Below the pieces are notes generated by a model, which saw only the letters and a list, made by a program, of their open reading frames with translations, was not told where the DNA came from and did no database searches. From the NCBI RefSeq assembly GCF_001425165.1, contig NZ_LMDU01000001.1, forward strand, positions 156,075 to 220,074: a stretch of DNA of 64,000 nucleotides. The letters are read 5' to 3'. Shown here piece by piece: positions 2,746-16,872 of the stretch (position 1 is the first letter of the stretch; each line of letters starts with the position of its first letter). This stretch comes from Pelomonas sp. Root405 (GTDB lineage: Bacteria > Pseudomonadota > Gammaproteobacteria > Burkholderiales > Burkholderiaceae_C). The position numbers and the translations under genes were made by a program.

Positions 2746-3060
2746 GATGGTCTCCCATCGAGTTGAGGGCCAACAAGCATGCGCCTGGGCCGCCCGCATC
2801 GATAGGCTTGGCGCCTTGGCCCTTCCTTTCCTGCCATGCTTCAAGGTCCGCTTTGCGGCGCATGAACGACCTCACGCTGCCGGCCACAAGCAGCCGTTGG
2901 GTGGTGCGTCCGGAAGCGGACGTCGATTACCCAGACCAGCTCATTGCATCAAAGCTTCGATCAATGGGCAGGTGGGCGGAGCGGGCGTCGGCGCCTAGCT
3001 GAAGGGTAATCGCGTGTCGCCGAGGGCTGAACCTTCGACATGCGAAGCGGGGCCGGGACG

Positions 3061-3993
3061 TTAGCGGGCAGCCCCAGCGGTCGCATCTGCCTGGGCGATG
3101 AACGCCAGCAACGCGGGCGTCGACTGCTTCTGGCGATGCACAACCAGATGACATTGCCGAAGCTGCCGCGGCAATGTCGTGGCGACGCGGCACAGACGTC
3201 CGGCCTCCAGCGCATCGTTCACTACCCAGGCGGACAGGCAGGCCACCCCCAACCCTTCCTGAGCGGCACGCTGGATGGCTTCCGAACTGCCCAGCTCGAT
3301 GCTCCGCCGGTAAGAGCGCAGGTGGGGCAGCAGGCTCTGGTCGGTCGCTTCGCGTGTGCCTGAGCCCGATTCGCGCACCAGCCACACCGCCTCACGCAGC
3401 GTGCGCTGGGGAATGCGCTCGCCTGCCGTACTCGACCGGGCCAGCGCACTGTCGGGTGCAGCCACGACCACCATCTCGTCTTGGAGCCAGGGCGTGACCA
3501 CCAGCGCTGGCTGGTGGCAGGGCCCCTCGATCAGTCCCACGTCGAGTTCGAATGCGGCCACGGCATCGCAGATGGCGGCGGTGTTTCCGATCACGACCTT
3601 CGATCGCCAGGCGGCGGCGCTGCCAGGTTGCTGGGCCCCCATGAAGCCGGCGAGCAGCTTTGGCAACACGTAGTTGCCGATCGTCGTGCTGGCGCCGATG
3701 CGCAGCGACTGCGCCTGCGCGCTGCCGTCGCGCGACATCTGCTCGATGCCGGCGGCGCCATCCAGCAAAGCCAAAGCCCGCGGCAAGAGCGTGCGGCCGT
3801 TGTCGTTCAGCAGCAGGCGCTTGCCGACGCGGTCGAACAGGCGCAGCGACAGCAAGCGTTCCAGTTCGTTAACGGCCGAACTGGTGGCCGATTGCGATAG
3901 CGCGATCTCAGCGCTGGCCGCCGTGGTGCTGCCGCTGCGAGCCACTGCCACGAAGATCTGCAACTGGCGCAGCGTGAGCCGCAGTACATCCAT
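3061..3993 (-). CDS. LysR-family regulator (YeiE/CbbR-like)
   Basis: A 310-residue LysR-type regulator. The N-terminal winged helix covers about residues 4-63 (LRQLQIFVAVARSGSTTAAS, then ALSQSATSSAVNELERLL) and a type-2 periplasmic-binding-fold effector domain follows from about residue 90. It is divergent from the YeiH-type exporter gene with 117 bases between start codons, the usual arrangement for a regulator controlling its neighbour. YeiE-type proteins elsewhere sense sulfite; that ligand is a family-based guess supported by the sulfite dehydrogenase 11 kb downstream. Confidence 0.88.
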   Translation of the reverse strand: MDVLRLTLRQLQIFVAVARSGSTTAASAEIALSQSATSSAVNELERLLSLRLFDRVGKRLLLNDNGRTLLPRALALLDGAAGIEQMSRDGSAQAQSLRIGASTTIGNYVLPKLLAGFMGAQQPGSAAAWRSKVVIGNTAAICDAVAAFELDVGLIEGPCHQPALVVTPWLQDEMVVVAAPDSALARSSTAGERIPQRTLREAVWLVRESGSGTREATDQSLLPHLRSYRRSIELGSSEAIQRAAQEGLGVACLSAWVVNDALEAGRLCRVATTLPRQLRQCHLVVHRQKQSTPALLAFIAQADATAGAAR

Positions 3994-4110
3994 CGGGGTT
4001 GCCTCTATCTAGCGATTCGGTCGTTTGATCTTACGCAGATAACCCGTTGGACCGATCACAAGCCAAGTCCGAGACTCGCCTTCATTCCCTCCTCTTGCCT
4101 GAAAACCCGC

Positions 4111-5223
4111 ATGACCACCACCGCATTTCGACGCACCACAGAGTCTTCAGCCGCCACGCCGCGCGCCTGGACCCGCCTGCTTCCCGGCCTGGCCCTGAGC
4201 GGCGCGCTGGCCGCTGCCGGCGTGGCGCTGGGCCGCATCGGCTGGCTGCAGGACCACGGCTTCAGTGCGCTGACGCTGGCCATCGTGCTGGGCATGATCG
4301 TCGGCAACACGGTCTATCCGCTGGTCCCGCGCCTGGCCGCGGCCAGCGGTGCCGGCGTCAACGTCTCCAAGCAGAACCTGCTGCGCCTGGGCGTGGTGCT
4401 GTACGGCCTGCGGCTGACGGTGCAGGACATCGGCCATGTCGGCATCGCCGGCGTCGCCATCGACGCGCTGGTGCTGGGCTCGACCTTCGCGCTGGCCTGC
4501 TTCATCGGCACGCGCTGGCTGGGCCTGGACCGCAAGACGGCGATGCTGATCGGCGCCGGCAGTTCCATCTGCGGTGCCGCCGCGGTGATGGCCGCCGAGC
4601 CGGTGGTCAAGGCGCGCGCCGAGCAGGTCACGGTGGCCGTCGCCACGGTTGTGGTGTTTGGAACGCTGGCCATCTTCCTGTACCCCGCGCTGTTCCAGCT
4701 GAACCAGCACTTGGAGCTGATTCCGGGCGGTGCCAACGGCTTCGGCATCTATGCGGGCTCGACCATCCACGAGGTGGCTCAGGTGGTGGCTGCGGCACGG
4801 TCGGTGGGCCCGGATGCGGCCAACTCGGCCGTCATCGCGAAGATGGTGCGCGTGATGATGCTCGCACCCTTCCTGGTGATGCTGTCGGCCTGGCTGGCGC
4901 GCGACGACAAACGCCACGCCAACACGTCGACCGCAACCGACCAGGCCAAAGGCAAGCTCGCCGTGCCCTGGTTTGCCTTCGGCTTCGTCGCGGTGGTGTT
5001 GTTCAACTCGCTGCAGTGGCTGCCGGCCTCGGTGGTGGCGGTGACGACCGAGATCGACACCGCGCTGCTGGCCATGGCCATGGCCGCGCTCGGCCTGGCC
5101 ACGCATTTCGGTGCCATTCGCAAGGCAGGGGCCAAGCCGCTGCTGCTGGCGCTGATCCTGTTCGGCTGGCTGATCGTCGGCGGTGCATTGATCAACCGCT
5201 GGGTGCCGGCCCTGCTGGGCTGA
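4111..5223 (+). CDS. yeiH: YeiH-family putative sulfate exporter (UPF0324)
   Basis: A 370-residue polytopic inner-membrane protein with about ten hydrophobic segments and the conserved family stretches LAIVLGMIVGNTVYP, NLLRLGVVLYGLRLT and GAGSSICGAAAVMA. The family is annotated as putative sulfate exporters on genetic context, without a firmly established substrate. If correct, it would export sulfate or a related oxyanion made when sulfite is oxidised. It lies divergent from the LysR gene and is followed by an exported propeller gene with its own promoter-like site. Confidence 0.85.
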   Translation: MTTTAFRRTTESSAATPRAWTRLLPGLALSGALAAAGVALGRIGWLQDHGFSALTLAIVLGMIVGNTVYPLVPRLAAASGAGVNVSKQNLLRLGVVLYGLRLTVQDIGHVGIAGVAIDALVLGSTFALACFIGTRWLGLDRKTAMLIGAGSSICGAAAVMAAEPVVKARAEQVTVAVATVVVFGTLAIFLYPALFQLNQHLELIPGGANGFGIYAGSTIHEVAQVVAAARSVGPDAANSAVIAKMVRVMMLAPFLVMLSAWLARDDKRHANTSTATDQAKGKLAVPWFAFGFVAVVLFNSLQWLPASVVAVTTEIDTALLAMAMAALGLATHFGAIRKAGAKPLLLALILFGWLIVGGALINRWVPALLG

Positions 5224-5245
5224 GGCCTCGAATTCACGGCCCGAC

Positions 5246-5271
5246 GGAATATGCCGCCGGCCGTCAACGTC
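5246..5271 (+). promoter_or_regulatory. ECF-type promoter, class 1 (copy 1)
   Basis: GGAATA at 5246-5251, exactly 16 bases, then CGTC at 5268-5271, with a C before the first box. It lies 49 bases before the ATG of the propeller gene at 5321. The same two boxes with the same 16-base spacer occur before three other genes in this cluster, including the operon that encodes an ECF sigma factor at 10681. The layout fits a -35/-10 pair of an extracytoplasmic-function sigma factor. Confidence 0.7.
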
Positions 5272-5320
5272 CACCAAAGCGAACCTGTTTCCCTTTTCAT
5301 CCCTCCACGAAAGACATCCC

Positions 5321-6355
5321 ATGAACACCTTCTTCCGCACCACCGCGCTGGCCTTGTGCAGCACCTTCGTCCTGGTGGCGGCCAGCCTGCCCGCAGGCGC
5401 CGCAGAAGCCACCCCGGCCCGCGTCACCTTCGACGGCCAGATCCGCAACAACTCGCTGGCGCTAAGCCCCGACGAGGCCACCGCCGTCGTGTCCTACAGC
5501 GAACGGCCCGATGTCATCGTCTACGACCTGGCCACCGGCGCCGTGCGCGGTGTGCTGCGCGGCTACGTCACGCCGCGCAACATCGTCTTCGCGCCCGACG
5601 GCAAGAGCTTCTATGTCTCCGACAGCAGCCTGGGCACGGTGACGCGCCTGGACACCACCACGCTCAAGCCGCTGGCCACCGCGTCGACGCTGGCGGCCGG
5701 CCCCGGCGCCTTCGGCACCGCGCTCAGCAAGGACGGCAGCGCGCTGTACGTCAACAACCAGGCCAGCAGCACCGTGACGCGACTGGACACCGCCAGCGGG
5801 CAGGCCAAGGCCGTGATCACCGGCTTTGCGCAGCCGCGCCAGGGCGTGCGCCTGAGCCCGGACGGCAGCAAGCTCTACGTCACCAACTTCCTGGGCGACA
5901 AGGTCACCATCGTCGACACGCAGACCGACAAGATCGAGGGCGAGATCGCGGGCTTCAACAAGATCCGCGCCATCTCGGTCACCGCCGACGGCAAGACCCT
6001 GTTCGCGGCCAACAGCGGCAGCAACGACATCGCGGTGGTGGACATCGGTGCGCGCCGCGTCACCAGTACCGTGCCGGTGGGCCGCGACCCCTACGGCGCT
6101 GCGCTCACGCCGGATGGCCGCTTCGTCTACTCGGGCAACCTGGCCGACAACACGGTGTCGGTGATCGACGTGGCCACGTTGAAGGTGGTCGCCACCATCG
6201 CCGGATTCAAGCAGCCGCGCCAGGCCATCGTGTTCACGCGCGACGGCCGCACAGCCTATGTGCTGAACGAGGACCTGAGCATCTCCAAGGTCGAGCGCGC
6301 CGGGCAGCGCATCGTCGCCACGGTGGCCGCACCGCAGGCGTTGACAGCGTACTGA
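5321..6355 (+). CDS. Exported YncE-like beta-propeller (YVTN repeats)
   Basis: A 344-residue protein with a clear signal peptide (charged start, hydrophobic core to about residue 25, cleavage after AGA). The rest is a chain of about seven roughly 42-residue repeats carrying patterns such as LSPDG, VTADGKTLFAANSG and LTPDGRFVYSG, typical of YVTN/YncE propellers. These are periplasmic folds without established catalysis, often found beside redox enzymes. A class 1 ECF promoter-like site lies just upstream. A second, Tat-type propeller occurs at 12301. Confidence 0.85.
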   Translation: MNTFFRTTALALCSTFVLVAASLPAGAAEATPARVTFDGQIRNNSLALSPDEATAVVSYSERPDVIVYDLATGAVRGVLRGYVTPRNIVFAPDGKSFYVSDSSLGTVTRLDTTTLKPLATASTLAAGPGAFGTALSKDGSALYVNNQASSTVTRLDTASGQAKAVITGFAQPRQGVRLSPDGSKLYVTNFLGDKVTIVDTQTDKIEGEIAGFNKIRAISVTADGKTLFAANSGSNDIAVVDIGARRVTSTVPVGRDPYGAALTPDGRFVYSGNLADNTVSVIDVATLKVVATIAGFKQPRQAIVFTRDGRTAYVLNEDLSISKVERAGQRIVATVAAPQALTAY

Positions 6356-6569
6356 ATCGCCGGCCCACGGCCCAGAATGAAGCGCCCGAGCCGGCGGCCG
6401 CCGATCAGCGTGACTCCGCGCTCAAGGAACTTGGAAACGTCGTTCGCGGCACCGGCCGCATCCGCGCTCAATCCCCGATCTTGGGCTGTCAGAGGATCTT
6501 TCGCCGTGCGACCAAGCCCAAGGCTTTCCGCTTCCGGCTGGCCTTGCTGCCCCCCGCATAAAGGACCGA

Positions 6570-7541
6570 ATGAAGACGCTTACCAACCCTTGCCGGCGCC
6601 GATGGGCGTCGCTCTGCCTGGCCTTGTGCACGCTGCCCGCGGCGTTCTCAGCTCATGCCCAGACGGCTGCCCCGCCTGCGCTGGAACTGGTGGTGCTGGG
6701 CTCGGGCGGCCCGGGTGCCACCGGCCGCGCGGGTTCGGCCTATGCCGTGCTGGTGGACGGCGTGGCGCGGGTCTTCGTCGACGCCGGCCCGGGCTCTTTC
6801 GTGCGCCTGGGCGAAGCCAAGCTGGCGCTGGGCCGGGCCGACATCGTGCTTCTGACGCACCTGCATGTGGACCACGCTGGCGGACTGCCGGGGCTGTTCA
6901 AGGCCCGTGCGGTGTCCAGCCGCGGACCGGTCGAATTCAAGATTTTCGGGCCGGCAGGGCGGCGTGCGGTCAACGCCGACGACGCTGACTTCCCCGCCAC
7001 CAGCCGCTTCATCGACCTCTTGTTCGGCAAGCAGGGCGCCTTCGGCTACCTGAAGGACTTCTCGGCGCCGCTGCGCTTTCAAGTGAACGACATCGACGCA
7101 CCCGCCACGGCGTCAGCCCTGCCCGAAGTGCGCACGGTGTTCGATGAGGGCGGCCTGCGCATCAGCGCCGTGGCCGGCCACCACCGCGACGCACCGGCGG
7201 TGGTCTACCGCATCGACCACGCCGGCAAGAGCATCACCTTCAGCGGCGACATCGACGCCAGCGGGCTGGCGGGTCTGCGGCGAATCGCCCAAGGCACCAG
7301 CCTGCTGGTCTTCAACAGCGTGGTGCTCGACCCACCCGGCTCGCCCGACGTGCTGTACACCTTGCACACGCCACCCAAGGCCATCGGCGAAGTGGCTGAT
7401 GCGGTGCGCGCCGGCCAGCTGCTGCTGAGCCACTTGTCGCCCGCGCTCGACGCGCAGCGTGACGCTGTGAAGGCGTCGATCACTGCGCACTATGCCGGCG
7501 GGGTGGTGTTTGCGCAAGACGGTCAGCGGCTGGCGCCCTGA
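6570..7541 (+). CDS. Exported metallo-beta-lactamase-fold hydrolase
   Basis: A 323-residue protein with a signal peptide ending near SAHA (residue 30). The mature part begins with the MBL opening strand LELVVLGSGGPG and carries the metal motif HLHVDHAG with H97, H99, D101 and H102. Further ligands plausibly sit in AGHHRD and in the later FSGDID segment. The AAAGGA sequence before the ATG supports the start. Substrate is unknown; relatives include arylsulfatase-like and RNase Z-like hydrolases. It lies 214 bases after the propeller gene with no obvious ECF promoter, and its 3' end overlaps the convergent gene by 19 bases. Confidence 0.82.
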   Translation: MKTLTNPCRRRWASLCLALCTLPAAFSAHAQTAAPPALELVVLGSGGPGATGRAGSAYAVLVDGVARVFVDAGPGSFVRLGEAKLALGRADIVLLTHLHVDHAGGLPGLFKARAVSSRGPVEFKIFGPAGRRAVNADDADFPATSRFIDLLFGKQGAFGYLKDFSAPLRFQVNDIDAPATASALPEVRTVFDEGGLRISAVAGHHRDAPAVVYRIDHAGKSITFSGDIDASGLAGLRRIAQGTSLLVFNSVVLDPPGSPDVLYTLHTPPKAIGEVADAVRAGQLLLSHLSPALDAQRDAVKASITAHYAGGVVFAQDGQRLAP

Positions 7542-7972
7542 GGCGCGCAGCCGCCGGCGATAGTGGCGGTACCAGCCCCGAGTTCGACGCCCGTGCCTAC
7601 CGACCCCACGAAGGTGATCACGCGAGCCATGCCGTCGGGCCACAGGAACACGGCGGCGTCGAACTTCATGCGCTGGCCGACCGATGGGCTGCCGCTCACG
7701 AAACCTTCGGTGCCGACACCGCGGTCCAGGCCCCGCAAGTAGAAGGCGCCCGCCGTGGTGCCGAGGGCGTCGGCAAAGGTGCCCGAGAAGCTGAAGGTGT
7801 CGCTGGCCGGGTCGTAGCCGGCGAACGCGCTCGCCACATCCACGTCGCCGTTCTGCGGACCGATGTACGTGGGCAGTAGGTCGCCAATGGGGTCGGTGAT
7901 GCCTTGCGCCAGCGCACCGGTCGCGGCGGTGAACAAGCTGGCCAGCAGCAGGAAGGTCAGGGTTCGCTTCAT
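7523..7972 (-). CDS. Small exported protein of unknown function
   Basis: A 149-residue protein with a good signal peptide (KRTLTFLLLASLFTAATG, cleavage near ALA, residue 22). The mature part is rich in Gly, Ala, Thr and aromatic residues and has the look of a small beta-sandwich. I recognise no family motif. It is convergent with the MBL-fold gene, overlapping it by 19 bases. It is the only gene between 4.1 and 16.9 kb on the minus strand and has no ECF-type box on its own upstream side. Confidence 0.6.
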   Translation of the reverse strand: MKRTLTFLLLASLFTAATGALAQGITDPIGDLLPTYIGPQNGDVDVASAFAGYDPASDTFSFSGTFADALGTTAGAFYLRGLDRGVGTEGFVSGSPSVGQRMKFDAAVFLWPDGMARVITFVGSVGTGVELGAGTATIAGGCAPQGASR

Positions 7973-8044
7973 CGGAGCAATTGGTGGAGCGTGTCGGGCG
8001 GGTCAACTGCCGATGGCGTGACAGAAAAAGTTTTTGCGTGGGCC

Positions 8045-8070
8045 GGAATAGACCGCCTGCCGGCGCCGTC
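8045..8070 (+). promoter_or_regulatory. ECF-type promoter, class 1 (copy 2)
   Basis: GGAATA at 8045-8050, 16 bases, CGTC at 8067-8070, again preceded by C. It lies 83 bases before the ATG of the NTF2-like gene at 8154, in the divergent region between that gene and the minus-strand exported protein. Confidence 0.7.
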
Positions 8071-8153
8071 TGCCCTTGTGTCGGGACCTCATGGACCCTT
8101 CATCCACCACCGACCACCCCTCACTTCACCTCAAGCCTTCAACGGAGCCCTCC

Positions 8154-8618
8154 ATGTTCAAGACATTCGCCTTTGCCGCCACTGCCCTGACGCTTGCCGC
8201 TGGCAGCGCCTTCGCCGCCCCTTCCGACGACGCCCGCACGCACTTCCAGGCCATCGCTTCGGGCGACACCCAGATCGTGATGCGCGCCTACGCCGACCAT
8301 GCCCAGCTGAACTGGGTCGGCGGCCCGCTGGACGGCACCTACGCCACCACCGACGCCATCCGCGGCACCTGGGAAAAGTTCGGCAAGGCCGTCGGCCCGC
8401 TGAAGCTCACCATCGGCTCCATCGAAGAATCGGCCAACCCCAAGGGCTCGACGGTCTCCGCCAACGTCGTCTTCGAAGGCAAGCAGCCGATCAAGGTGCG
8501 TTACGTGCTGACCTACCGCGAAGGCAAGATCGTCAGCGAAACGTGGCAGATCGACCCCAAGCTGAACGTCGCCCTGGCAGCCACTGCCGAAACCGCCGGT
8601 AAGACCGCGACCTACTGA
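8154..8618 (+). CDS. Exported SnoaL/NTF2-like protein
   Basis: A 154-residue protein: a signal peptide of about 20 residues (cleavage after FAA), then an NTF2/SnoaL-type cone fold suggested by DDARTHFQAIASGDTQIVM, YADHAQLNWVGGPLDGTY and a final strand pair VRYVLTYREGKIVSETWQID. Such folds bind small ligands or act as isomerase-like enzymes; no catalytic assignment is possible. The start follows GGAG by 7 bases. It has its own class 1 ECF promoter-like site, so it probably belongs to the stress regulon. Confidence 0.78.
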   Translation: MFKTFAFAATALTLAAGSAFAAPSDDARTHFQAIASGDTQIVMRAYADHAQLNWVGGPLDGTYATTDAIRGTWEKFGKAVGPLKLTIGSIEESANPKGSTVSANVVFEGKQPIKVRYVLTYREGKIVSETWQIDPKLNVALAATAETAGKTATY

Positions 8619-8701
8619 TCCACCAGCGCCGCGCCGCACCGGGCCAGACCGGGGGCGGTGCGCACCTGCGTCGTTCGGGTTCATTCCCCGCAGTTGACAA
8701 C

Positions 8702-8727
8702 GGAATACCCGCAAGCACCCGTGCGTC
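8702..8727 (+). promoter_or_regulatory. ECF-type promoter, class 1 (copy 3)
   Basis: GGAATA at 8702-8707, 16 bases, CGTC at 8724-8727, preceded by C, 53 bases before the ATG at 8781. Same spacing as the other three copies. Confidence 0.7.
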
Positions 8728-8780
8728 GACCTGTTTGAAGTGGTTGACGCACTGCTCACCCGTCCACCCAGGAGCTCCCC

Positions 8781-10031
8781 ATGCGACACCCGCTTTCCAA
8801 ACTTTCGGCTGTGCTGATGCACGCTGCTCTCGCGGCCGCGGCAGGCCTTGCTTCACTGCCCGGCCACGCCGCAGACGGCGCTGAATCCCTGACCTATACC
8901 AACATCACCAAGATACGCGACGGCATGGGCGCACGGGGCGACCTCGCACCGATCGCACGCATCGTCTCGCCTCTGGCGGATGCGCAGATCGTGCCGGGAG
9001 AAGGCCGCATTGGCGCAGGCAGCGTGAATGGCACCGGCTTCGTGCTGAACATCGAGGTCGTCACGCGCGACGCGACGCCGGTCGCCGCGAAAGAATCGCT
9101 CAACATCAGAAACACCGCGCTGCTCGGCCAGGTCAACCCGAACATTCCGGGCCTCTATGTCTTCCTCGACACCGACCTCGTCAAGCCCGACGGTGGCGTG
9201 ATCCCGAAGAACACCAACCTGGCGAACCTCTTCAACATCCTGGGCACCGACGACACGCCCGGCGCGGGCGTGACGATGTGGCTGGGCTGGCACGTGCTTG
9301 AATCGCTGCCGCTCGACACGAACCGCTTCAACATCACCACCGCCGTGGTCGACACCGCCGGTCGGATCGGATTCGACCGGGTCTCGATGGCGGTGCTGCG
9401 CGGCGGTATCACATCGGGGCAGGCACTGACGCCCCTTCCGATCGATGTGTTCGATGACGGCATCGACGACGCGGACGGACCGGAGGTGACGATGATTGCG
9501 CCCCGCGTGCCGTCGCGTGTGTCACCTGGGCCGCAAACCGGCAATCCGACGCCGCCTGCGAATGCATCGCTGTTCTTCATTCAAGTGGCGGCGCTGGACC
9601 GCTCGCGTCACGGCATCGGCGTCAGCGAAAACGGCCAGGGCACGGCGGCCCGCTCGGTGTTGGGAACCATCCTGGATGGCAGCCAGATCCAGAACCCGAT
9701 CACGCATCCCAGCAACGGCACGAACCGCAATTTCCCGGGTCTGAACGTGACCTTCGACGTGCCCTTGCGTCAGCCCAACGGCAACGTGGTGCCGGCGGGC
9801 TCGAACCTGGCGCCGATCTTCAACGTTGCCGGCAGCGAGCTGGACGCTGACGGCTATGTCGTGACGACGGCCGATTGGGTGGTGGGGGGATCGCTCCTGA
9901 TGCCTGCGGGCAAGCGTTCGGTCACGATCACCGCCCGGGTCACCGACAACGCCAACCGCACCCGCAGCGTCAGCCACGTCGTGGGCATCAGCCCGGTCGA
10001 GAACGGCCAAAACCTGACGCCCGCACCCTGA
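8781..10031 (+). CDS. Exported protein with an internal duplication, unknown function
   Basis: A 416-residue protein with a signal peptide (cleavage near GHA, about residue 30). Two similar halves can be aligned by eye. Near residues 90-200: LNIEVVTRD, NPNIPGLYVFLDTDL, PDGGVIPKNTNLANLFNILG, FNITTAVVDTAGR. Near residues 268-400: FIQVAALDR, NFPGLNVTFDVPL, PNGNVVPAGSNLAPIFNVAG, VTITARVTDNANR. Each half looks like a beta-rich domain ending in a bacterial Ig-like strand pattern. I do not recognise the family. GGAG precedes the ATG, and a class 1 ECF promoter-like site lies upstream, so it should be coexpressed with the NTF2-like and secreted-repeat proteins. Confidence 0.75.
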   Translation: MRHPLSKLSAVLMHAALAAAAGLASLPGHAADGAESLTYTNITKIRDGMGARGDLAPIARIVSPLADAQIVPGEGRIGAGSVNGTGFVLNIEVVTRDATPVAAKESLNIRNTALLGQVNPNIPGLYVFLDTDLVKPDGGVIPKNTNLANLFNILGTDDTPGAGVTMWLGWHVLESLPLDTNRFNITTAVVDTAGRIGFDRVSMAVLRGGITSGQALTPLPIDVFDDGIDDADGPEVTMIAPRVPSRVSPGPQTGNPTPPANASLFFIQVAALDRSRHGIGVSENGQGTAARSVLGTILDGSQIQNPITHPSNGTNRNFPGLNVTFDVPLRQPNGNVVPAGSNLAPIFNVAGSELDADGYVVTTADWVVGGSLLMPAGKRSVTITARVTDNANRTRSVSHVVGISPVENGQNLTPAP

Positions 10032-10041
10032 GAACGAGGCC

Positions 10042-10067
10042 GCGCGGCTCCGACCATGGAGCCGCGC
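10042..10067. terminator. Terminator-like hairpin without T-run
   Basis: A perfect 10-base stem, GCGCGGCTCC against GGAGCCGCGC, with the 6-base loop GACCAT, 11 bases after the stop of the duplicated-domain gene. There is no T-run, so it may be a weak or factor-dependent terminator or an RNA 3'-end stabiliser. It separates that gene from the next ECF promoter-like site. Confidence 0.5.
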
Positions 10068-10135
10068 TGGACGCACAGGGCAGCGGCAGCCTGCCACCCT
10101 GCACAACCAACACCCCATCTTTTTTTCACGCCTGC

Positions 10136-10161
10136 GGAATAAAAGGCCTGAGCGTGCCGTC
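10136..10161 (+). promoter_or_regulatory. ECF-type promoter, class 1 (copy 4)
   Basis: GGAATA at 10136-10141, 16 bases, CGTC at 10158-10161, preceded by C, 65 bases before the secreted-repeat lipoprotein gene. Because the ECF sigma gene at 10681 lies in the same apparent transcription unit, this copy suggests that sigma factor is autoregulated and recognises this class. Confidence 0.72.
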
Positions 10162-10226
10162 TGCCCCGATGTGAGCAACATCTCACCCACGCTGCCCGAT
10201 CCGCCACCACCTCCACGGAGCTTCCC

Positions 10227-10619
10227 ATGTTCAAAACCCTCGCCATCGCCGCATCTGCGGCAACGTTTCTGGTCACTGCCGGCTGTGCCAACCTGGCTGA
10301 GCCGCCTGCCAAGGCGCCCGCCATGTTGTCTGGCGGCGCGCTCGTCACACCCGCTGGCATGACCCTCTACACCTTCGACCAGGACGTGGCGAACAGCGGC
10401 AAGAGCGCCTGCAACGGCGGCTGCGCCGCGCTCTGGCCGCCGATGATGGCCACCGCCACCGACCGGACCACGGGTGCCTACAGCATCGTCACTCGCGACG
10501 ATGGGTCACGCCAGTGGGCCTACAAGGGCAAGCCGGTGTACACCTACAAGGCCGACCAGAAGGCCGGCGACCGCAGCGGCGACAACTTCAAACAGGTCTG
10601 GCACATCATCAAGGAATGA
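10227..10619 (+). CDS. Secreted-repeat lipoprotein (COG4315-like)
   Basis: A 130-residue protein with a lipoprotein-type signal ending in the lipobox VTAGC (Cys19 or 20). It carries two copies of the secreted repeat of unknown function (Lipoprotein_15 type): GMTLYTFDQDVANSGKSACN with GGCAALWPP, and KGKPVYTYKADQKAGDRSGD. The family is extracytoplasmic, usually found with ECF sigma factors or redox proteins, and has no defined activity. GGAG precedes the start. It is the first gene of the unit containing the sigma factor at 10681. Confidence 0.85.
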   Translation: MFKTLAIAASAATFLVTAGCANLAEPPAKAPAMLSGGALVTPAGMTLYTFDQDVANSGKSACNGGCAALWPPMMATATDRTTGAYSIVTRDDGSRQWAYKGKPVYTYKADQKAGDRSGDNFKQVWHIIKE

Positions 10620-10680
10620 CGCCTGTACACCCGCCTGCACACCCAGCTTCGCGCGGGCTCACCCCATCTTCAACATCTTG

Positions 10681-11184
10681 ATGAACGACGACCATCAACT
10701 GCTGAGCTGGGTGCCGCGCTTGCGCCGCTATTCCCGGGCGCTGGTGAACAACCGCGACGACGCCGACGACCTGGTGCAGGACACGCTGGAGCGGGCCTGG
10801 GCCAAGTCGGGCCTGTGGGGCAGCGTGGCGGACATGCGCGCCTGGCTCTTCAGCATCATGCACAACCTGCACGTCGATGGCGTGCGCCGGCCCAGGCTGC
10901 ACACCGTGACCATGGACGATGACACCCCCGAGGTGCCGGTGATGCCGACGCAAGGCGACAGGTTGGCGGTGCTGGACCTGCAGGCCGCGCTGGACCTGCT
11001 GCCCGTCGAGCAGAAGGAAGTGCTGCTGCTGGTGGCGCTGGAAGACATGGCCTATGCCGACGTGGCGCAGGCCCTGGGCATTCCCATCGGCACGGTGATG
11101 TCGCGCTTGTCGCGCGGCCGTGAGCGCCTGCGCGGCCTGATGGAAGGTCGTGCCGAACCCGTGCGGCTGAAGGTCGTCAAATGA
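10681..11184 (+). CDS. ECF RNA polymerase sigma factor (first)
   Basis: A 167-residue ECF sigma factor. Region 2 spans about residues 8-75 (YSRALVNNRDDADDLVQDTL, then MRAWLFSIMHNLHVDG) and region 4 about residues 105-155 (LPVEQKEVLLLVALEDMAYA, then LGIPIGTVMSRLSRGRERLR). The ATG at 10681 is the first Met in front of region 2; no strong Shine-Dalgarno is present. It lies 61 bases after the lipoprotein gene and 19 bases before the anti-sigma gene. The class 1 promoter consensus upstream of this unit and three other genes in the cluster is its likely target. Confidence 0.9.
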   Translation: MNDDHQLLSWVPRLRRYSRALVNNRDDADDLVQDTLERAWAKSGLWGSVADMRAWLFSIMHNLHVDGVRRPRLHTVTMDDDTPEVPVMPTQGDRLAVLDLQAALDLLPVEQKEVLLLVALEDMAYADVAQALGIPIGTVMSRLSRGRERLRGLMEGRAEPVRLKVVK

Positions 11185-11203
11185 ATGCATTGCGAAGCAC
11201 CCT

Positions 11204-12130
11204 ATGAGTACCGATCGCCCATCGCCGCCCACCCTCCCGCCCACCCCCCCGGTCACCGAGGCCGAGCTGCATGCGTTTGTCGATGGCCGTCTGCCCGCAG
11301 AGCGTGAGGCCGAGATCGCTGCCTACCTGGCCGCGCGCCCCGACGATGCGCAGCGCGTCGAGGCCTACCGTGCGCAGAAGCGCGAGCTGCACGCCCTGTT
11401 CGACCCCGTGCTGGACGAGCAGCCGCCGCAACGCCTGCTGAAGTCGGCGCGCCCGCGCGCCGTATCGCCGACGCCTTGGTACCTGCAGCGCTTGGCCGCC
11501 GGGCTGGCTATCGCCGTCATCAGCGGCGCCACGGGCTGGGGGCTGCGCGGCGTCGGACCTGGAACAGCCGGTGACGATGCAGCCCGCATGGCGGCTGTGC
11601 AACCGGCCCCAGGTGGTTTGACTTTGGTGTCTGCGGGTGGCTTCGCGCAGCGTGCCGCCGTCGCGCACGCGGTCTACAGCCCCGATGTGCGCCGGCCCGT
11701 GGAAGTGGACGCCGCGCACGAAGACCAGCTCGTGGCCTGGCTGTCCAAGCGCATGGGCGCGCCGATGAAACCGCCGCACCTGCAGGCGCAGGGCTACACG
11801 CTGGAAGGCGGGCGCCTGCTGCCAGGTGGCCAGGGGCCGGTGGCTCAGTTCATGTACCGCAACGAGCAGGGCAGCAAGCTGACGCTGTACGTGTCCAATG
11901 ACGTCGCTGACGTGGGCAGCGCCGCGGGCTCGGGCGGGGCCGCGAAACCGGATGCGAAACCGGGTGCGAAGAACGCTGACACCGCCTTCCGCTTCGCGCA
12001 GGAAGGCGCCGTCAACGTGTTCTATTGGGTCGACGGGCCCTTCGGCTATGCGCTGTCGTCCGACGCCGACCGCAGCGTGCTGGCGCGGGTGTCGGCCGAG
12101 GTCTACCAACAGCTGGGCGCACCGCGCTGA
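11204..12130 (+). CDS. Membrane anti-sigma factor
   Basis: A 308-residue protein following the first sigma gene by 19 bases. The N-terminus (ELHAFVDGRLPAEREAEIAA, then LAARPDDAQRVEAYRAQKR) matches the cytoplasmic part of anti-sigma factors that lack the zinc-binding HxxxCxxC motif. A single membrane helix lies near residues 92-110 (LAAGLAIAVISGATGWGL). The long C-terminal part, about 190 residues, would lie in the periplasm and may sense the signal. It holds the sigma factor inactive at the membrane by family analogy. Confidence 0.85.
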   Translation: MSTDRPSPPTLPPTPPVTEAELHAFVDGRLPAEREAEIAAYLAARPDDAQRVEAYRAQKRELHALFDPVLDEQPPQRLLKSARPRAVSPTPWYLQRLAAGLAIAVISGATGWGLRGVGPGTAGDDAARMAAVQPAPGGLTLVSAGGFAQRAAVAHAVYSPDVRRPVEVDAAHEDQLVAWLSKRMGAPMKPPHLQAQGYTLEGGRLLPGGQGPVAQFMYRNEQGSKLTLYVSNDVADVGSAAGSGGAAKPDAKPGAKNADTAFRFAQEGAVNVFYWVDGPFGYALSSDADRSVLARVSAEVYQQLGAPR

Positions 12131-12174
12131 AGGCCACGGCAAGTCCCGCAGCGCAGGCGGTTTGCACCGCCATC

Positions 12175-12200
12175 GAATGAATTGGCCTGAAGCGCGCTCT
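12175..12200 (+). promoter_or_regulatory. ECF-type promoter, class 2 (copy 1)
   Basis: GAATGA at 12175-12180, 16 bases, CTCT at 12197-12200 followed by T. The same boxes with the same spacing occur at 14082-14107 in front of the second sigma gene; both copies share ATnGAATGA and CTCTT. It lies 100 bases before the Tat-exported propeller gene. It differs from the GGAATA/CGTC class. Confidence 0.55.
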
Positions 12201-12300
12201 TTGCTGCGAGCGCCTGACGCACCGACACAGCCCGTCGTTGGGTGCAAGGTCGCGCGTCACAGGCCCCAGTCCACCTTTGCACTGAACAAAGAAAGCACCC

Positions 12301-13686
12301 ATGACCACCCAACGTCGCGACATCCTCAAATACTCGCTGGCCGCCGCAGCCGCCAGCGCGCTGCCTGCAGCGCAAGCCCAGGCGCCGTCCAGCGCCGCCG
12401 CCGCCACCGGCATCGACCCGCGCGACCGCGTCTTCATCACCAACGAAGACTCCAACACGCTGGTCGTGATCGACCCCAGGACCAACACCGTCGAGAGCAC
12501 CATCAACCTGACCAGCTTCGACGAAGACCCGCGGCCGCCCTTCCGCTATGTCACCGCCGGCGTGGCGCCGACGCACGCGGCGATGATCCACAAGCCGCTG
12601 TACCACGGCTGCATCGACGCCCACGGCGCGGTGCCGTCGCCCGACGGCCGGCTGCTGGCCACCAGCGGGCGCGGCTCGAGCAACATCTACCTCGTCGACG
12701 CCGAGCAGCGCCGCGTCATCGGCAACACGCCCAACCCGGCCGCTGGCATGACGACCAACCCCGAACGCCTGAGCAGCGGGCTGCTGCTGGGCCGCGAACC
12801 GCACGAGCCCACCTTCACGCGCAACGGCAAGGAGCTTTGGGTGACGCTGCGCGGGGAAGACCGCATCGCCATCGTCAACGTCGAACTCGCCCTGCGTCAG
12901 TTGAAGGGCACCGACAACACAGGTTCGACGGCCATCCGCCAGTTCCTGCCGACGATCAACGGCCCGGCCCAGGTATGGTTCAACCGCGAAGGCACGCTGG
13001 CCTTCGTGGCCAGCCAGAAGGTGTCGCAGGTCGACGTGTTCCGTGTCAACCCGGGCGCCGATGGCCACAGCCAGCCGCAGCGCGTGACGACACTGGACAT
13101 CAGTGCGCAGGACAAGCCCGGCTTCACGCCCTTCATGAAGACCACGCCCGACGGCGCCGAGGTGTGGTTCTCGCACAAGCTGGCCGATGCGCTGTCTTCT
13201 CGCTCGACGCGGGGCGGTTTCGACCTCATTGACAGCGTGCCGCTGGGCATGGGCGCGCGGCCCAACCACGTCGAGTTCGTCAGCAACGCGCGCGGCAGCG
13301 TGGTCTATGCCAGCCTGGCGCGCATCGACGACGGGGGCCCCGGCGGCGTCGCCTCCAGCCCCATCGCCATCATCGACCGCAGCGCAGCCAGCGGCCAGCG
13401 CAAGGTGGTCGGCACCTTCTTCAGCCACGGCCGCGAATCGCACGGGCTGTGGACCAACCCCGAGAACACGCTGCTCTACGTGGCGCACGAGCAGGACGAA
13501 CTGCCCGGCACGCCCAACGCCGGCCAGACGGTGTGCAGCGCCTTCGACGTCAGCGACCCGCTGAAGCCGGTCTTCATCGCGCAGATTCCGCTGGGCAACC
13601 TGACCCTGCCTTCCGGAGCGCTGCGCAACAAGAAGAGCATCAACCTGGTCTACGTGCGCGTGGGTGCCAAGGGGCAGACTGCATGA
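12301..13686 (+). CDS. Tat-exported YncE-family beta-propeller
   Basis: A 461-residue protein with a twin-arginine-like signal (QRRDILKYSLAAAAASAL) ending near AQA. Propeller repeats are visible as DRVFITNEDSNTLVVIDP, SPDGRLLATSGRGSSNIYLV, FTRNGKELWVTLRGEDRI and TNPENTLLYVAHEQDEL. Tat export suggests folding or cofactor/metal acquisition in the cytoplasm, unlike the Sec-type propeller at 5321. The stop overlaps the start of the DUF305 gene by 4 bases (ATGA), so the two are translationally coupled. A class 2 ECF promoter-like site precedes it. Confidence 0.85.
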   Translation: MTTQRRDILKYSLAAAAASALPAAQAQAPSSAAAATGIDPRDRVFITNEDSNTLVVIDPRTNTVESTINLTSFDEDPRPPFRYVTAGVAPTHAAMIHKPLYHGCIDAHGAVPSPDGRLLATSGRGSSNIYLVDAEQRRVIGNTPNPAAGMTTNPERLSSGLLLGREPHEPTFTRNGKELWVTLRGEDRIAIVNVELALRQLKGTDNTGSTAIRQFLPTINGPAQVWFNREGTLAFVASQKVSQVDVFRVNPGADGHSQPQRVTTLDISAQDKPGFTPFMKTTPDGAEVWFSHKLADALSSRSTRGGFDLIDSVPLGMGARPNHVEFVSNARGSVVYASLARIDDGGPGGVASSPIAIIDRSAASGQRKVVGTFFSHGRESHGLWTNPENTLLYVAHEQDELPGTPNAGQTVCSAFDVSDPLKPVFIAQIPLGNLTLPSGALRNKKSINLVYVRVGAKGQTA

Positions 13687-14045
13687 AGGGCATGAAGGGC
13701 ATGAGGGGCGGACACGCCCAACATGGAGTCAGTGCCTTCGAGCGCGAGATGGACGCTTCGATGGCCCGCATGATGCAAGACATGCACGGCCCGGGCTTCG
13801 TGGGCCAGGCCGACATCGACTTCCTGGCGATGATGATTCCGCACCACGCCGGCGCCGTCGACATGGCGCGGCTGGTGCTGCAGCACGGCCGCGACCCGGC
13901 CACGCGGCAACTGGCGGAGGAGATCATCGCCGGCCAGACCATCGAGATCGAGAGCATGACGCGGCGGCTGGCGGCCTTGCAGCAGCGCTCTAGCGCGGGT
14001 TCGGCAGCCGAATTTCCATCGCTGGGTGGCACGCGCGGGCCGTGA
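13683..14045 (+). CDS. DUF305-domain protein, Met/His-rich, no signal peptide
   Basis: A 120-residue protein with the DUF305 hallmarks QADIDFLAMMIPHHAGAVDM and, later, an ETI-like helix (EEIIAGQTIEIESMTRRLAA). The family is mostly periplasmic and linked to metal (copper) handling through conserved Met and His. Here the frame starts directly with MKGMKGMRGGHAQHG and has no hydrophobic leader, and no in-frame upstream leader exists. The ATG overlaps the propeller stop. Methionine is unusually frequent, so metal binding or sacrificial oxidation is conceivable. Location (cytoplasm, or export with its partner) is uncertain. Confidence 0.8.
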   Translation: MKGMKGMRGGHAQHGVSAFEREMDASMARMMQDMHGPGFVGQADIDFLAMMIPHHAGAVDMARLVLQHGRDPATRQLAEEIIAGQTIEIESMTRRLAALQQRSSAGSAAEFPSLGGTRGP

Positions 14046-14081
14046 TGCCCAGCCTGAGGGTAAGCACTGACGATGGCGATG

Positions 14082-14107
14082 GAATGAACCGCAGCGCTGT
14101 CCGCTCT
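14082..14107 (+). promoter_or_regulatory. ECF-type promoter, class 2 (copy 2)
   Basis: GAATGA at 14082-14087, 16 bases, CTCT at 14104-14107 followed by T. It matches the class 2 copy at 12175. The ATG of the second sigma gene is at 14116, only 8 bases after the second box, so a transcript starting at the normal distance would begin at or next to that ATG (leaderless). Confidence 0.55.
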
Positions 14108-14115
14108 TGATCACC

Positions 14116-14649
14116 ATGCTGTTCCAGTCTGCCGAGTCCCGCTACAACCAATGGGTGCGGGACCATTACCGCTTCCTGCTGCGCAGCGCCTGGGCGCTGA
14201 CGGGCTCGCGTGCCATCGCCGAAGACGTGGTGCAGGACTGTTTTGCCAACGCCTGGAAGCACCGCGAGCAGTTGCGGGATGGGGCGTTGGCGCGGGCCTG
14301 GCTGTTCCAGATCATGCGGCGCGCCGCCTTCCGCCAGGCCGCGCCGGGCATGCAGTCGCTGGACGACGACGAGCAGCCCGAGCAGGCCGCCCCCGACGCC
14401 GGGCTGGACGACAAGCTGGACGTGGTCAAGGCGCTCGCGCGGCTGGCGCCCATCCACCGCGAGGTGCTGGTGCTGTTCTATTTCGACGACATGCCCACCG
14501 CGCAGATGGCCGAGGCGCTGGAGATTGCGCCCGGCACCGTGCTGTCGCGCCTGGCTCGCGCGCGCGACGCGCTGAAGCAGGTGATGGGCGTGCCAGTGCG
14601 GGCACCCGGCGGCGCCCAGGTCACGCCCTTGCGGAAGACCCCGTCATGA
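14116..14649 (+). CDS. ECF RNA polymerase sigma factor (second)
   Basis: A 177-residue ECF sigma factor: region 2 at about residues 10-75 (RYNQWVRDHYRFLLRSAWAL, then AEDVVQDCFANAWKHREQL and WLFQIMRRAA) and region 4 at about residues 105-160 (LAPIHREVLVLFYFDDMPTA, then LEIAPGTVLSRLARARDALK). The ATG at 14116 was chosen; a TTG at 14107 is the alternative. There is no Shine-Dalgarno. The stop overlaps the next gene by 4 bases. It heads the operon with a putative anti-sigma gene, sorA and a cytochrome c gene. In Sinorhizobium, ECF sigma factors responding to sulfite control SorT-type sulfite oxidation; the same logic is likely here. Confidence 0.9.
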   Translation: MLFQSAESRYNQWVRDHYRFLLRSAWALTGSRAIAEDVVQDCFANAWKHREQLRDGALARAWLFQIMRRAAFRQAAPGMQSLDDDEQPEQAAPDAGLDDKLDVVKALARLAPIHREVLVLFYFDDMPTAQMAEALEIAPGTVLSRLARARDALKQVMGVPVRAPGGAQVTPLRKTPS

Positions 14650-15278
14650 AGCGCGAACTCCGGCCGCCCGAGTTGCCCGACAGCGCGTTCGACTTGCGCA
14701 CGCGCGCCGAACTGGCGCTGGCCTTCGAGCCCATCGACGCCCCGCCGCACTTGTACCGCAAGGCGCAGCCGCTAATGGCGCGGCGCAGCTTCCAGCGCGC
14801 CGTGCTGGGCCTGCTGCTGGCAGGCAGCGGCACCGGCGCCGTGCTGGCCATGCGCCCGCCAGAACTCGTGCGCGGCGCCATCGAACACGAATACTTCGAG
14901 CGCACGCTGCGCGGCACCTTCATGGCCAGCGCGCCCTTGCTGCAGCACCTGGGGCTGGCCGGCCAACAGGTGGTGCCCGGCTTCCCGCAGCTGATGCGGC
15001 CTTGCGACATCGACGGCCACCTCGTCTACCACCTCACCACCTTCTTCGAGAAGGGCGGCATGGTCACCGTGTTCGCCTTCGACAAGGCGGTGGCGCTGAC
15101 GGAGGGCAGCGGCTGGTGGGGCAACGTGCACTGGAAAGTCATCACCTCGCGCGACGGCAAGCCGCTGGTGCTGGTGGCGCAGAAGAAGCAGGCCCTGGCC
15201 GTGGCGCAAAGCCAGTTCGGTCCAGCCACCGACATGTCCCCACCGAATTCCACACCGACCCCCAAGGAGACCCGATGA
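14646..15278 (+). CDS. Putative anti-sigma factor, single-pass membrane protein
   Basis: A 210-residue protein whose ATG overlaps the second sigma stop (ATGA), the usual position of a cognate anti-sigma factor. A cytoplasmic N-terminus of about 55 residues precedes one membrane helix near residues 58-76 (AVLGLLLAGSGTGAVLAM). The periplasmic part contains LMRPCDIDGHLVYHLTTFFE and MVTVFAFDKAVALTEGSG. A cysteine (about residue 121) and several Met and His in this part could serve sensing. It ends overlapping the sorA start. Assignment rests mainly on position and topology. Confidence 0.7.
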   Translation: MKRELRPPELPDSAFDLRTRAELALAFEPIDAPPHLYRKAQPLMARRSFQRAVLGLLLAGSGTGAVLAMRPPELVRGAIEHEYFERTLRGTFMASAPLLQHLGLAGQQVVPGFPQLMRPCDIDGHLVYHLTTFFEKGGMVTVFAFDKAVALTEGSGWWGNVHWKVITSRDGKPLVLVAQKKQALAVAQSQFGPATDMSPPNSTPTPKETR

Positions 15279-16501
15279 ACAAGACCTTGAACTCGCTGCC
15301 GCGGCGCCAGATGCTGGCCGGCAGCGCCAGCGCCCTGGCCGCGGCCGGCCTGGCCACTTTCACGCGCGGTGCCGCCGCGGCTGGCGAAACCCCAGTGGCC
15401 AGCGCCACGCCCAAGCCGCTGCCCGCCTACGTGGCGTGGAAAGACCCGGCCAGCGTCATCGTGCACAGCAGCACCACCATCGAGACCAAGCGTGCAGCCT
15501 TCGGCAGCGGGGTCATCACGCCGGCCGAGCAGCTCTACATCCGCAACAACCTGCCGGCGCCCGACGCGTCCATCGTCGCCGACCGCGACGCCTGGCAGGT
15601 GGCCATCGAAGGCGTGAAGGCGCCGCGCACGCTGACGCTGCGCGAGCTGAAGACGATGGGCGTGGAGACGACCGCGATGGTGCTGCAGTGCTCGGGCAAT
15701 GGTCGCGGCTACTTCCCCAGCAAGCCCAGTGGCACACCCTGGCAGGTGGGCGCGGCGGGTTGCGTGATGTGGACCGGCGTTCCGGTGCGCGTGGTGGCCG
15801 AAGCGCTGGGCGGCGTCGTGCCGGGCGCCGGTTACCTGACCGGCACCGGCGGCGAGAAGCTGCCCGAAGGCCTGGACCCGCTGAGCATCATCGTCGAGCG
15901 CTCGGTGCCGGCCGCCGCGATGGCCGACGCGCTGCTGGCCTGGGAGATGAACGGCGTGCCGATCTCGCTGGCCCACGGCGGGCCGCTGCGCCTGATCGTG
16001 CCCGGCTACACCGGCGTGAACAACATCAAGTACATCAAGCGCCTGGCCTTCACGGCCAAGGAAACCGAGGCGAAGATCATGTCGCACGGCTACCGCATCT
16101 CGCCGCCGGGCGGCAAGGGCGACCCGAGCCAGCCGTCGGTGCAGGAGATGTCGGTAAAGTCGTGGATCAACTCGCCGGCGCCTGATGCATCCAGCGTCAA
16201 GGCCGGCCTGGTGCAGGTGCAAGGCGTGGCCTTCGGCGGGCTGAACGGCATCAAGCGCGTCGAGGTGTCGCTGGACGGCGGCAAGACCTGGAACGACGCG
16301 CGGCTCACCGGGCCCGACCTGGGCCGCTATGCCTGGCGACAGTTCGTGCTGGCCGCGAAGCTGCCCGCTGGCAGCCACACGCTGGCCAGCCGCGCCACCG
16401 ACACGGCCGGCAACGTGCAGCCCGAACAGCGGATGGAAAACGCCGGCGGCTACAACAACACGAGCTGGGCCGACCACGCCGTGAAAGTGACGGTGGCCTG
16501 A
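15275..16501 (+). CDS. sorA: SorA-type sulfite dehydrogenase (molybdenum oxidoreductase)
   Basis: A 408-residue periplasmic molybdenum enzyme of the sulfite oxidase family. The Tat signal (LPRRQMLAGSASALAAAGLA) precedes the molybdopterin domain. The molybdenum-ligating Cys139 sits in VLQCSGNGRGYF, and GPLRLIVPGYTG and NIKYIKRL are conserved. The C-terminal dimerisation domain carries VEVSLDGGKTWNDARL. It oxidises sulfite to sulfate and passes electrons to the cytochrome c encoded next. AAGGAGACCC precedes the ATG, which overlaps the previous stop. The family could also include sulfoxide or peptide-methionine-sulfoxide reductases of YedY type, but length and the adjacent cytochrome c favour Sor. 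Confidence 0.85.
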   Translation: MNKTLNSLPRRQMLAGSASALAAAGLATFTRGAAAAGETPVASATPKPLPAYVAWKDPASVIVHSSTTIETKRAAFGSGVITPAEQLYIRNNLPAPDASIVADRDAWQVAIEGVKAPRTLTLRELKTMGVETTAMVLQCSGNGRGYFPSKPSGTPWQVGAAGCVMWTGVPVRVVAEALGGVVPGAGYLTGTGGEKLPEGLDPLSIIVERSVPAAAMADALLAWEMNGVPISLAHGGPLRLIVPGYTGVNNIKYIKRLAFTAKETEAKIMSHGYRISPPGGKGDPSQPSVQEMSVKSWINSPAPDASSVKAGLVQVQGVAFGGLNGIKRVEVSLDGGKTWNDARLTGPDLGRYAWRQFVLAAKLPAGSHTLASRATDTAGNVQPEQRMENAGGYNNTSWADHAVKVTVA

Positions 16502-16503
16502 AC

Positions 16504-16872
16504 ATGCGCAACACCATCCACCAGCACTTCGTGGTGCATGCCTTGAAAGTCGCGTCGGTGCTCGTCGCAGGCCTGGCACTGCCCGCTCTGCCCGCGCTGG
16601 CGGCCGACGAAAGCGCGCAACTCGTCCTGGGGAAGAAGCTCTTCCTGCAGGGCGTCGTCCCGTCGTGCGCCGTGTGCCACACCTTGCAGGCCGCAGGTGC
16701 CGAGGGCGCCGTCGGCCCGGTCCTCGACGAGTTGAAGCCCGACGCCGGGCGGGTCGCGAAGGCGCTGCGCAACGGGCTGGGCCAGATGCCCTCGTACAAG
16801 GACAAGCTCACCGACGCAGAGATTGCGGCGCTGGCGCTCTACGTGTCGAAGGCCAGCGGGGGTGCCAAGTGA
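16504..16872 (+). CDS. sorB: Monohaem cytochrome c, SorB-like electron acceptor
   Basis: A 122-residue exported c-type cytochrome starting 2 bases after the sorA stop. A signal peptide of about 32 residues ends in ALAA. The haem motif is C55-A-V-C58-H59, and the distal ligand is probably M95 in GLGQMPSYKDKLTD. The size and position match the SorB subunit that accepts electrons from sulfite dehydrogenase and hands them to a terminal oxidase. It is the last gene of the sigma/anti-sigma/sorAB unit. Confidence 0.87.
   Translation: MRNTIHQHFVVHALKVASVLVAGLALPALPALAADESAQLVLGKKLFLQGVVPSCAVCHTLQAAGAEGAVGPVLDELKPDAGRVAKALRNGLGQMPSYKDKLTDAEIAALALYVSKASGGAK

Follow-up and report, generated by a model that had tools for sequence, protein, structure and literature searches.

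The best described relatives of the system analysed here are bacterial regulons in which extracytoplasmic function (ECF) sigma factors are linked to sulfite. In Sinorhizobium meliloti, SMc01418-rpoE1-ecfR1 encodes a Lipoprotein_15 protein, an ECF26 sigma factor and a membrane anti-sigma factor, and RpoE1 responds to sulfite-generating compounds (PMC3511301, PMC6180224). Two further systems, rpoE4-ecfR4 with sorT-sorU-azu2 in the same species and sigE with sorAB in Starkeya novella, place an ECF sigma factor and its anti-sigma factor beside a sulfite dehydrogenase operon. More distant ECFs beside a sulfite enzyme, known as group 3, have been described (PMC6527743; Delftia, Comamonas and Acidovorax in PMC3511301), and in Salmonella YeiH has a role in sulfite resistance and its gene adjoins a LysR gene (PMC12880088). 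Here we examine a stretch of 64,000 nucleotides (the window) from Pelomonas sp. Root405 (Burkholderiales), contig NZ_LMDU01000001.1, positions 156,075 to 220,074, with a discrete block that holds an RpoE1-type operon (sigma 1 and anti-sigma 1), a second ECF sigma factor (sigma 2) and sulfite enzymes. We think it quite likely that four copies of one motif (P1-P4) are promoters of sigma 1, of RpoE1-type ECF26 kind, in a sulfite regulon, and that sigma 2, with two copies of another motif (Q1, Q2), drives sorT-sorU.

The promoters of these systems have been partly described. Of ten ECF26-linked promoters taken from Table 1 of PMC6180224, seven read GGAAT[AT]-N15/16-[CT]GT[CT], two are less exact and one has no such sequence. 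Those of the rpoE1 operon, rpoE4 and SMc04291 share GGAATA-N16-[CT]GTC (TGTC for rpoE1, CGTC for rpoE4), and the tabulated sequences end 7-12 bases past the -10 box, at what we take as the start site. GGAAT/CGTC has been reported for alpha-proteobacterial sulfite enzymes and not ahead of the beta-proteobacterial group 3 enzymes (PMC6527743). The available text of that 2019 paper gives no promoter for the group 3 sigmas, mentions as a preliminary result that group 3 species have no close RpoE1 homologue, and states that the route from sulfite to ECF release from the anti-sigma factor is unknown.

Compared with these systems, the window combines features that have been described apart. It shares with the rpoE1 system the gene types, a promoter of its GGAATA-N16-TGTC kind, a small regulon and a sulfite link (PMC3511301, PMC6180224), but has four promoters within 5 kb, propeller and NTF2-like targets, and a place inside a mobile block with sulfite enzymes. 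It shares with the rpoE4 and sigE systems the neighbourhood of a sulfite dehydrogenase operon, but sigma 2 is more distant (32% identity, measured to S. meliloti RpoE6 only) and CTCTT replaces CGTC. Sigma 2 resembles the group 3 ECFs (PMC6527743) in gene context, on which this likeness is based: it is an ECF beside a sulfite enzyme in Burkholderiales, and no GGAAT/CGTC lies ahead of the enzyme gene. Here, in contrast, an RpoE1-type operon and a candidate motif accompany it. The Salmonella YeiE/YeiH pair has a counterpart in a LysR gene next to yeiH, likened to yeiE by family and position (PMC12880088), which here lies within a block with two ECF systems. As judged from sequence, then, an RpoE1-type operon and a sulfite-linked sigma are neighbours in this Burkholderiales genome. 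ECF26 promoters and this type of operon have been described before; what appears new, as far as our sources go, is their setting, together with a second class of promoter and the hint of a sensor domain. Among the literature matches listed (open-licence full texts), no title or abstract concerned the block or a GGAAT/CTCTT promoter. The ECFs of Arcobacter butzleri were also considered and, from the available text of PMC3445524, have no bearing on the promoter question.

Sigma 1 and the P motif

Scanning the window for CGGAATA-N16-CGTC returned four copies (Table 1), with 0.01 expected and no case of four or more in 100 shuffles. The first-pass annotation of this DNA had reported four copies with a constant 16-base spacing, each 49-83 bases ahead of a gene for an exported protein, and one of them heading the unit that contains the ECF gene at 10681. 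All of this was borne out, although its coordinates mark GGAATA, one base later than ours. The start codons lie 49, 83, 53 and 65 bases past the CGTC of P1 to P4, all four downstream products begin with signal-like segments (read from the sequence), and P4 precedes the Lipoprotein_15 gene and then sigma 1. The spacer sequences differ among the four copies. An early idea that the motif marks deletion joints was dropped on reading the alignment.

Many unrelated matches elsewhere in the genome had been named in advance as the result that would speak against a regulon. The whole genome (5,809,961 bases, 18 contigs) holds five exact matches, and none for the reversed pattern, so the proposal survived. 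The fifth copy, at C18:132579, overlaps an ATG, with its CGTC within codons 3-4 of a gene that reads like one for a binding protein. Looser forms behave differently: GGAATA-N16-CGTC has 7 matches against 1 reversed, GGAATA-N16-CGT falls to background (10 against 9), and GGAATA-N16-CGTC occurs in at least 120 of 150 family genomes, where the reversed pattern is frequent too. With GGAATAA-N14/15-YGTY we found four sites in the genome (none reversed), one in the block and one being the C18 site; C1:727789 and C13:439383 lack a clear promoter setting, and these relaxed scans gave no convincing further regulon members. Because specificity is lost in the looser forms, the motif alone is not diagnostic, whereas its position is. 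Moreover, since the pattern was picked after four copies had been seen, the independent test is conservation elsewhere.

Two sets of sigma 1 loci, which may share genomes, were used for this. Relatives of sigma 1 occur in 73 of 150 family genomes (our own included) at E 1e-25, and the 30 best loci form the family set; the named set holds 80 loci selected for sigma 1 only, the top 80 among 576 confirmed ones. For strict GGAATA-CGTC with spacers of 12-21 bases, the family set gave 18 sites at 16, one at 15 and none at other spacings, and none on the reverse strand. Upstream of sigma 1, GGAATA-N16-[CT]GT[CT] is present in 47 of the 80 named loci. Family loci that lack the strict form mostly carry CGTT, TGTT or CGTA. 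For this reason we turned to a wider pattern, GGAATA-N15/16-[CT]GT[CTA], which is found in 76/80 named and 29/30 family loci (absent in L077, L090, L097, L124 and in L028, respectively). The reverse-strand control gave two loci in each set, and 59 permuted -35 boxes gave means of 0.5 named and 0.2 family loci (largest 7 and 4). When loci are counted by spacer, 16 bases accounts for 59 named and 28 family loci and 15 bases for 20 and 1, with 0-4 at each remaining length from 10 to 24. The ECF promoter reading in the first-pass annotation is upheld by a format equal to that of mapped ECF26 promoters and by its travelling with sigma 1.

The targets were followed in the same way. The widened motif lies upstream of 7/7 propeller orthologues (reverse control 0) and 23/23 NTF2-like orthologues (reverse control 2), with several near-identical copies in both groups, and for many of the NTF2-like orthologues counted the upstream site is the sigma operon's own. 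The NTF2-like gene opens the sigma operon in several relatives, which ties it to the regulon. At P1 the boxes are kept while the spacer diverges, as far as the propeller orthologue of L142 with its diverged flanks. Lipoprotein_15 genes have the motif in 41 of 59 cases. For the duplicated-domain protein it precedes two of four open reading frame (ORF) pieces, in near-identical copies, and P3 itself is present in L049 and L129. Altogether, the regulon of sigma 1 (P1-P4) is supported computationally; for the compact regulon first proposed, support is good at the propeller and NTF2-like genes and thin at the duplicated-domain protein. The second ECF sigma, the sulfite genes and the mobility of the block did not figure in the first-pass annotation.

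Over 151 residues, sigma 1 shares 41% identity (E 6e-35) with S. meliloti RpoE6, an ECF26 factor whose gene we placed on pSymA via four published promoters around it. The order Lipoprotein_15-sigma-anti-sigma is that of the S. meliloti rpoE1 operon, and the site ahead of it has the GGAATA box, a spacer of 15 or 16 bases and a GT-containing -10 that define ECF26 promoters. A second sigma 1 paralogue (L148, G000:C1:335943-336401) is 69% identical; its match contains a single TGA, and the stretch fetched around it shows nothing homologous to anti-sigma 1. A comparable orphan occurs in Pelomonas sp. Root1444 (L077).

Anti-sigma 1 has 308 residues and no cysteine. Its predicted layout fits that of ECF26 anti-sigma factors, with an N-terminal domain, a membrane helix (residues 92-116 in the model) and a C-terminal, putatively periplasmic domain near 176-308, the span and its side being read from the sequence. 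The modelled fold of this last domain is RseB/MucB-C-like, with a moderate score. Searched by sequence, Pfam MucB_RseB_C (PF17188) matched one of 38 anti-sigma relatives (E 0.23) and not the window protein, and the anti-sigma 1 profile found no solved structure (two rows, best E 0.24). The model likens it to Escherichia coli RseB and Pseudomonas aeruginosa MucB (which act with RseA and MucA), but here the domain lies within the anti-sigma chain itself. In L046 (pT29A) the match to anti-sigma 1 falls into two ORFs, and in S. meliloti 1021 the RpoE1 anti-sigma factor is frameshifted according to the literature.

Sigma 2 and the Q motif

Both the propeller-CopM pair and sigma 2 are preceded by [G/C]GAATGA-N16-CTCTT, and the two genome matches of GAATGA-N16-CTCTT both lie within the block. 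As this pattern, too, was picked after both copies had been seen, conservation is the test. It covered the sigma 2 locus of the window, five near copies of it and seven others. Of these 13 loci, 11 have GGAAT-N18-[CT]TCTT upstream of sigma 2, including five of the seven that are not near copies; of the remaining loci, one has N20 and one (L161) has no motif. At N18, the reverse strand of the 13 loci has none. Across 399 genomes of the order, TGGAAT-N18-CTCTTTAG has 10 matches, three of them at sigma 2 (G128, G342 and G371), and these three genomes have no sigma 1 at E 1e-20, which argues that Q goes with sigma 2. The -10 box of sigma 2 ends 7 bases before its ATG, so the transcript is possibly leaderless.

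In L198 (G197, from another family), one stretch holds a P-type site followed by NTF2-like, CopM-like and propeller genes, which precede sigma 2-sorT-sorU, together with a Q-type site; sigma 1 of G197 is located apart from this stretch.

The mobile block and its genes

Over the aligned parts, the block is 96.7% identical to NC_024957.1 (pT29A) and NC_024958.1 (Methylibium sp. T29, T29-B), and it is also present in G033 and L049. Six sequences (the window, L046, L049, L129, L130 and L131) have the left end in common, where L130 and L131 share a flank and L049 is off by a few bases, and four (the window, L046, L049 and L129) have the right end. Shortened versions that keep this order of genes occur on plasmid p1-T1 of Acidovorax sp. 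T1 and in G046, G053, G057 and G114. Neither sigma 2 nor SorT has a match in G030, the sole same-genus genome. Of 19 ORFs scanned elsewhere in the window, 14 match families (e.g. glutathione synthesis, transporters) that look chromosomal. The block is shared among several hosts and, on this comparison, appears to move as one unit.

The ends are sharp in several hosts, yet there is no recognised transposase inside, and comparing stretches at the ends for repeats gave no more than a match of 8 bases that looks like chance. Just to the left of the block in the window is an integrase gene (2122-2844). On p1-T1 (L047) the sulfite block is near IS1071, with chromate resistance genes beyond a Tn3-family transposase. 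In L046 an IS21 transposase gene separates the two ORFs that carry the duplicated-domain match; a structure model of this protein was unusable (pLDDT, the per-residue confidence of the model, 31.5 from three near-identical sequences).

Table 1. Features of the block, in window coordinates
Feature	Position	Strand	Basis
Discrete block, about 14.15 kb	2881..17031		shared with Methylibium plasmid records and other genomes
LysR-family regulator, transcribed divergently to yeiH; resembles YeiE in family and position only	3061..3993	-	PF03466/PF00126
YeiH-family membrane protein, candidate sulfite exporter	4111..5223	+	PF03601, E 2.3e-105
P1, putative ECF26-type promoter CGGAATA-N16-CGTC	5245..5271	+	motif scan, 7/7 orthologues
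Exported beta-propeller protein, YVTN repeats	5321..6355	+	family match
MBL-fold hydrolase, no P motif directly ahead	6570..7541	+	PF12706
Small exported protein, no families	7523..7972	-	family scan
P2, putative ECF26-type promoter	8044..8070	+	motif scan, 23/23 NTF2-like orthologues
Exported NTF2/SnoaL-like protein	8154..8618	+	PF12680, barely over cut-off
P3, putative ECF26-type promoter	8701..8727	+	motif scan
Exported protein, duplicated domain, no families	8781..10031	+	family scan
P4, putative ECF26-type promoter heading the sigma operon	10135..10161	+	motif scan, conservation
Lipoprotein_15 protein, SMc01418 counterpart by family and position	10227..10619	+	PF03640, E 5.3e-33
Sigma 1, ECF26-like (RpoE1-type) sigma factor	10681..11184	+	family match, 41% to RpoE6
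Anti-sigma 1: N-terminal anti-sigma region, one predicted membrane helix, RseB/MucB-C-like periplasmic domain	11204..12130	+	model
Q1, CGAATGA-N16-CTCTT	12174..12201	+	motif scan
Exported YncE-like propeller protein, weak twin-arginine (Tat) signal match	12301..13686	+	family match; YncE name from plasmid annotation
DUF305/CopM-like protein	13683..14045	+	family match; CopM model 86.3, cut-off 90
Q2, GGAATGA-N16-CTCTT	14081..14108	+	motif scan, sigma 2 loci
Sigma 2, the second ECF factor, starting with ATG	14116..14649	+	family match; same start annotated on pT29A
Putative anti-sigma 2, no family	14646..15278	+	position, overlap
SorT sulfite dehydrogenase	15275..16501	+	NF052247 652.6 bits, cut-off 570
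SorU cytochrome c	16504..16872	+	NF052248 114.5 bits, cut-off 100

The surroundings of sigma 1 were surveyed in 103 loci (80 named, 20 further and 3 plasmid, the window not counted). Near sigma 1, yeiH is found in 15 and sorT in 13, including the divergent L141 and L142; in L141, L142 and L144 (sigma 1 53-61% identical) the sulfite genes stand in other arrangements.

The proposed circuit and its alternatives

The block looks built for the export and oxidation of toxic sulfite under two sigma factors. In the circuit that we favour, membrane-bound anti-sigma 1, with its RseB/MucB-like periplasmic domain, would hold sigma 1 until sulfite (from sulfonates or thiosulfate) or the damage it causes leads to release. 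Sigma 1 would then read its own operon from P4 and the three exported-protein genes from P1-P3. Sigma 2 would read the propeller-CopM pair from Q1 and, from Q2, its own operon with sorT-sorU, whose products would oxidize sulfite to sulfate after its export, probably by YeiH. Read-through or cross-talk may also join the two sigmas. A fuller version is offered more tentatively: a self-contained, mobile sulfite-defence island of Burkholderiales, with two ECFs on orthogonal promoters that share the -35 GAAT and differ in CGTC versus CTCTT, a built-in RseB-like sensor in anti-sigma 1, and a partly leaderless CTCTT sigma driving SorT-SorU.

Several observations weigh against this circuit. Added sulfite did not induce the S. 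meliloti reporters (PMC3511301), which argues against simple periplasmic sensing. The window scan shows no P motif directly ahead of sorT, and P3 is unmatched in L046 (pT29A) by the widened form. Of the 103 sigma 1 loci, 88 show no yeiH and 90 no sorT within the stretch fetched, which for some loci is short; the signal may accordingly be wider than sulfite. These linkage counts are also not independent, because copies of a single mobile block make up most of the loci that have yeiH or sorT. Near sorT orthologues outside the block, 13 of 14 fetched loci contain no homologue of either sigma, and the fetched stretches around sigma 2 of G342 and G371 show no sorT. As for the Q motif, its reversed control has one match in the genome; with one mismatch allowed, the window has two matches against 0.31 expected, a number reached by 6 of 100 shuffles; and in the 399 order genomes seven matches lie away from sigma 2, with two for the reversed pattern.

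Some of these points would suit a reading in which P1-P4 are real ECF26 promoters of sigma 1, its signal is general envelope or oxidative stress, and the sulfite genes are passengers controlled only by sigma 2 and the LysR regulator. The many sigma 1 operons without yeiH or sorT nearby agree with it, as do the P-motif genes, which encode exported proteins without assigned function, G128, which has sigma 2 with sorT-sorU and no sigma 1, and the report that a sulfite response is not common to all ECF26 sigmas (PMC3511301). We nevertheless regard it as rather unlikely, given that yeiE-yeiH or sorT recur by distant sigma 1 operons in differing arrangements (L141, L142, L144) and that RpoE1, the closest studied counterpart, responds to sulfite-generating compounds. 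Alternatively, sigma 1 alone could drive sulfite oxidation by read-through of a single operon from P4 to SorU, leaving the Q motifs unimportant. The genes from 10227 to 16872 are indeed collinear with gaps of at most 170 bases, in which the scan gave no terminator-like site and no sigma-70-like promoter (the terminator scan of the region found two against 9.0 expected, one inside sigma 2 at 14455). Against this improbable arrangement, the Q motifs occur only in the block in their own genome and precede sigma 2 in genomes without sigma 1.

Two further explanations carry much less weight. Sigma 1 might be the ECF15 factor of the general stress response (EcfG), with the motifs as its promoters, because its best Pfam match is the sigma2 domain of PhyR and 11 of 38 anti-sigma 1 relatives have a weak NepR match (best E 0.0003). 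The ECF15 -35 has the form GGAAC, and NepR is a small soluble protein. All four sites carry GGAATA instead, and anti-sigma 1, with its 308 residues and periplasmic domain, is unlike NepR; the RpoE2 targets of S. meliloti do show GGAAC (PMC6180224), and we rejected this very improbable assignment. A repeated element, or chance, is hardly credible as the source of the four copies: the pattern was chosen after the fact, but the expectation of 0.01, the five genome matches against none, and spacers that differ among copies and diverge in orthologues while the boxes stay all speak otherwise, as does conservation in independent loci.

The favoured circuit, with its two sigmas and two motifs, offers two starting points: the Q motif is a candidate promoter of sigma 2 that can be tested, and the RseB-like domain modelled in anti-sigma 1 suggests concretely how the signal may be received. 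The block of 14 kb would bring together a candidate sensor, exporter and enzyme with two sigmas on separable promoters, so that the entire circuit could be transferred to a laboratory host and dissected. If the reading is true, it would conflict with the preliminary report of no RpoE1 homologues where beta-proteobacterial sulfite sigmas occur (PMC6527743, in the text available), and it would supply the promoter of these sigmas.

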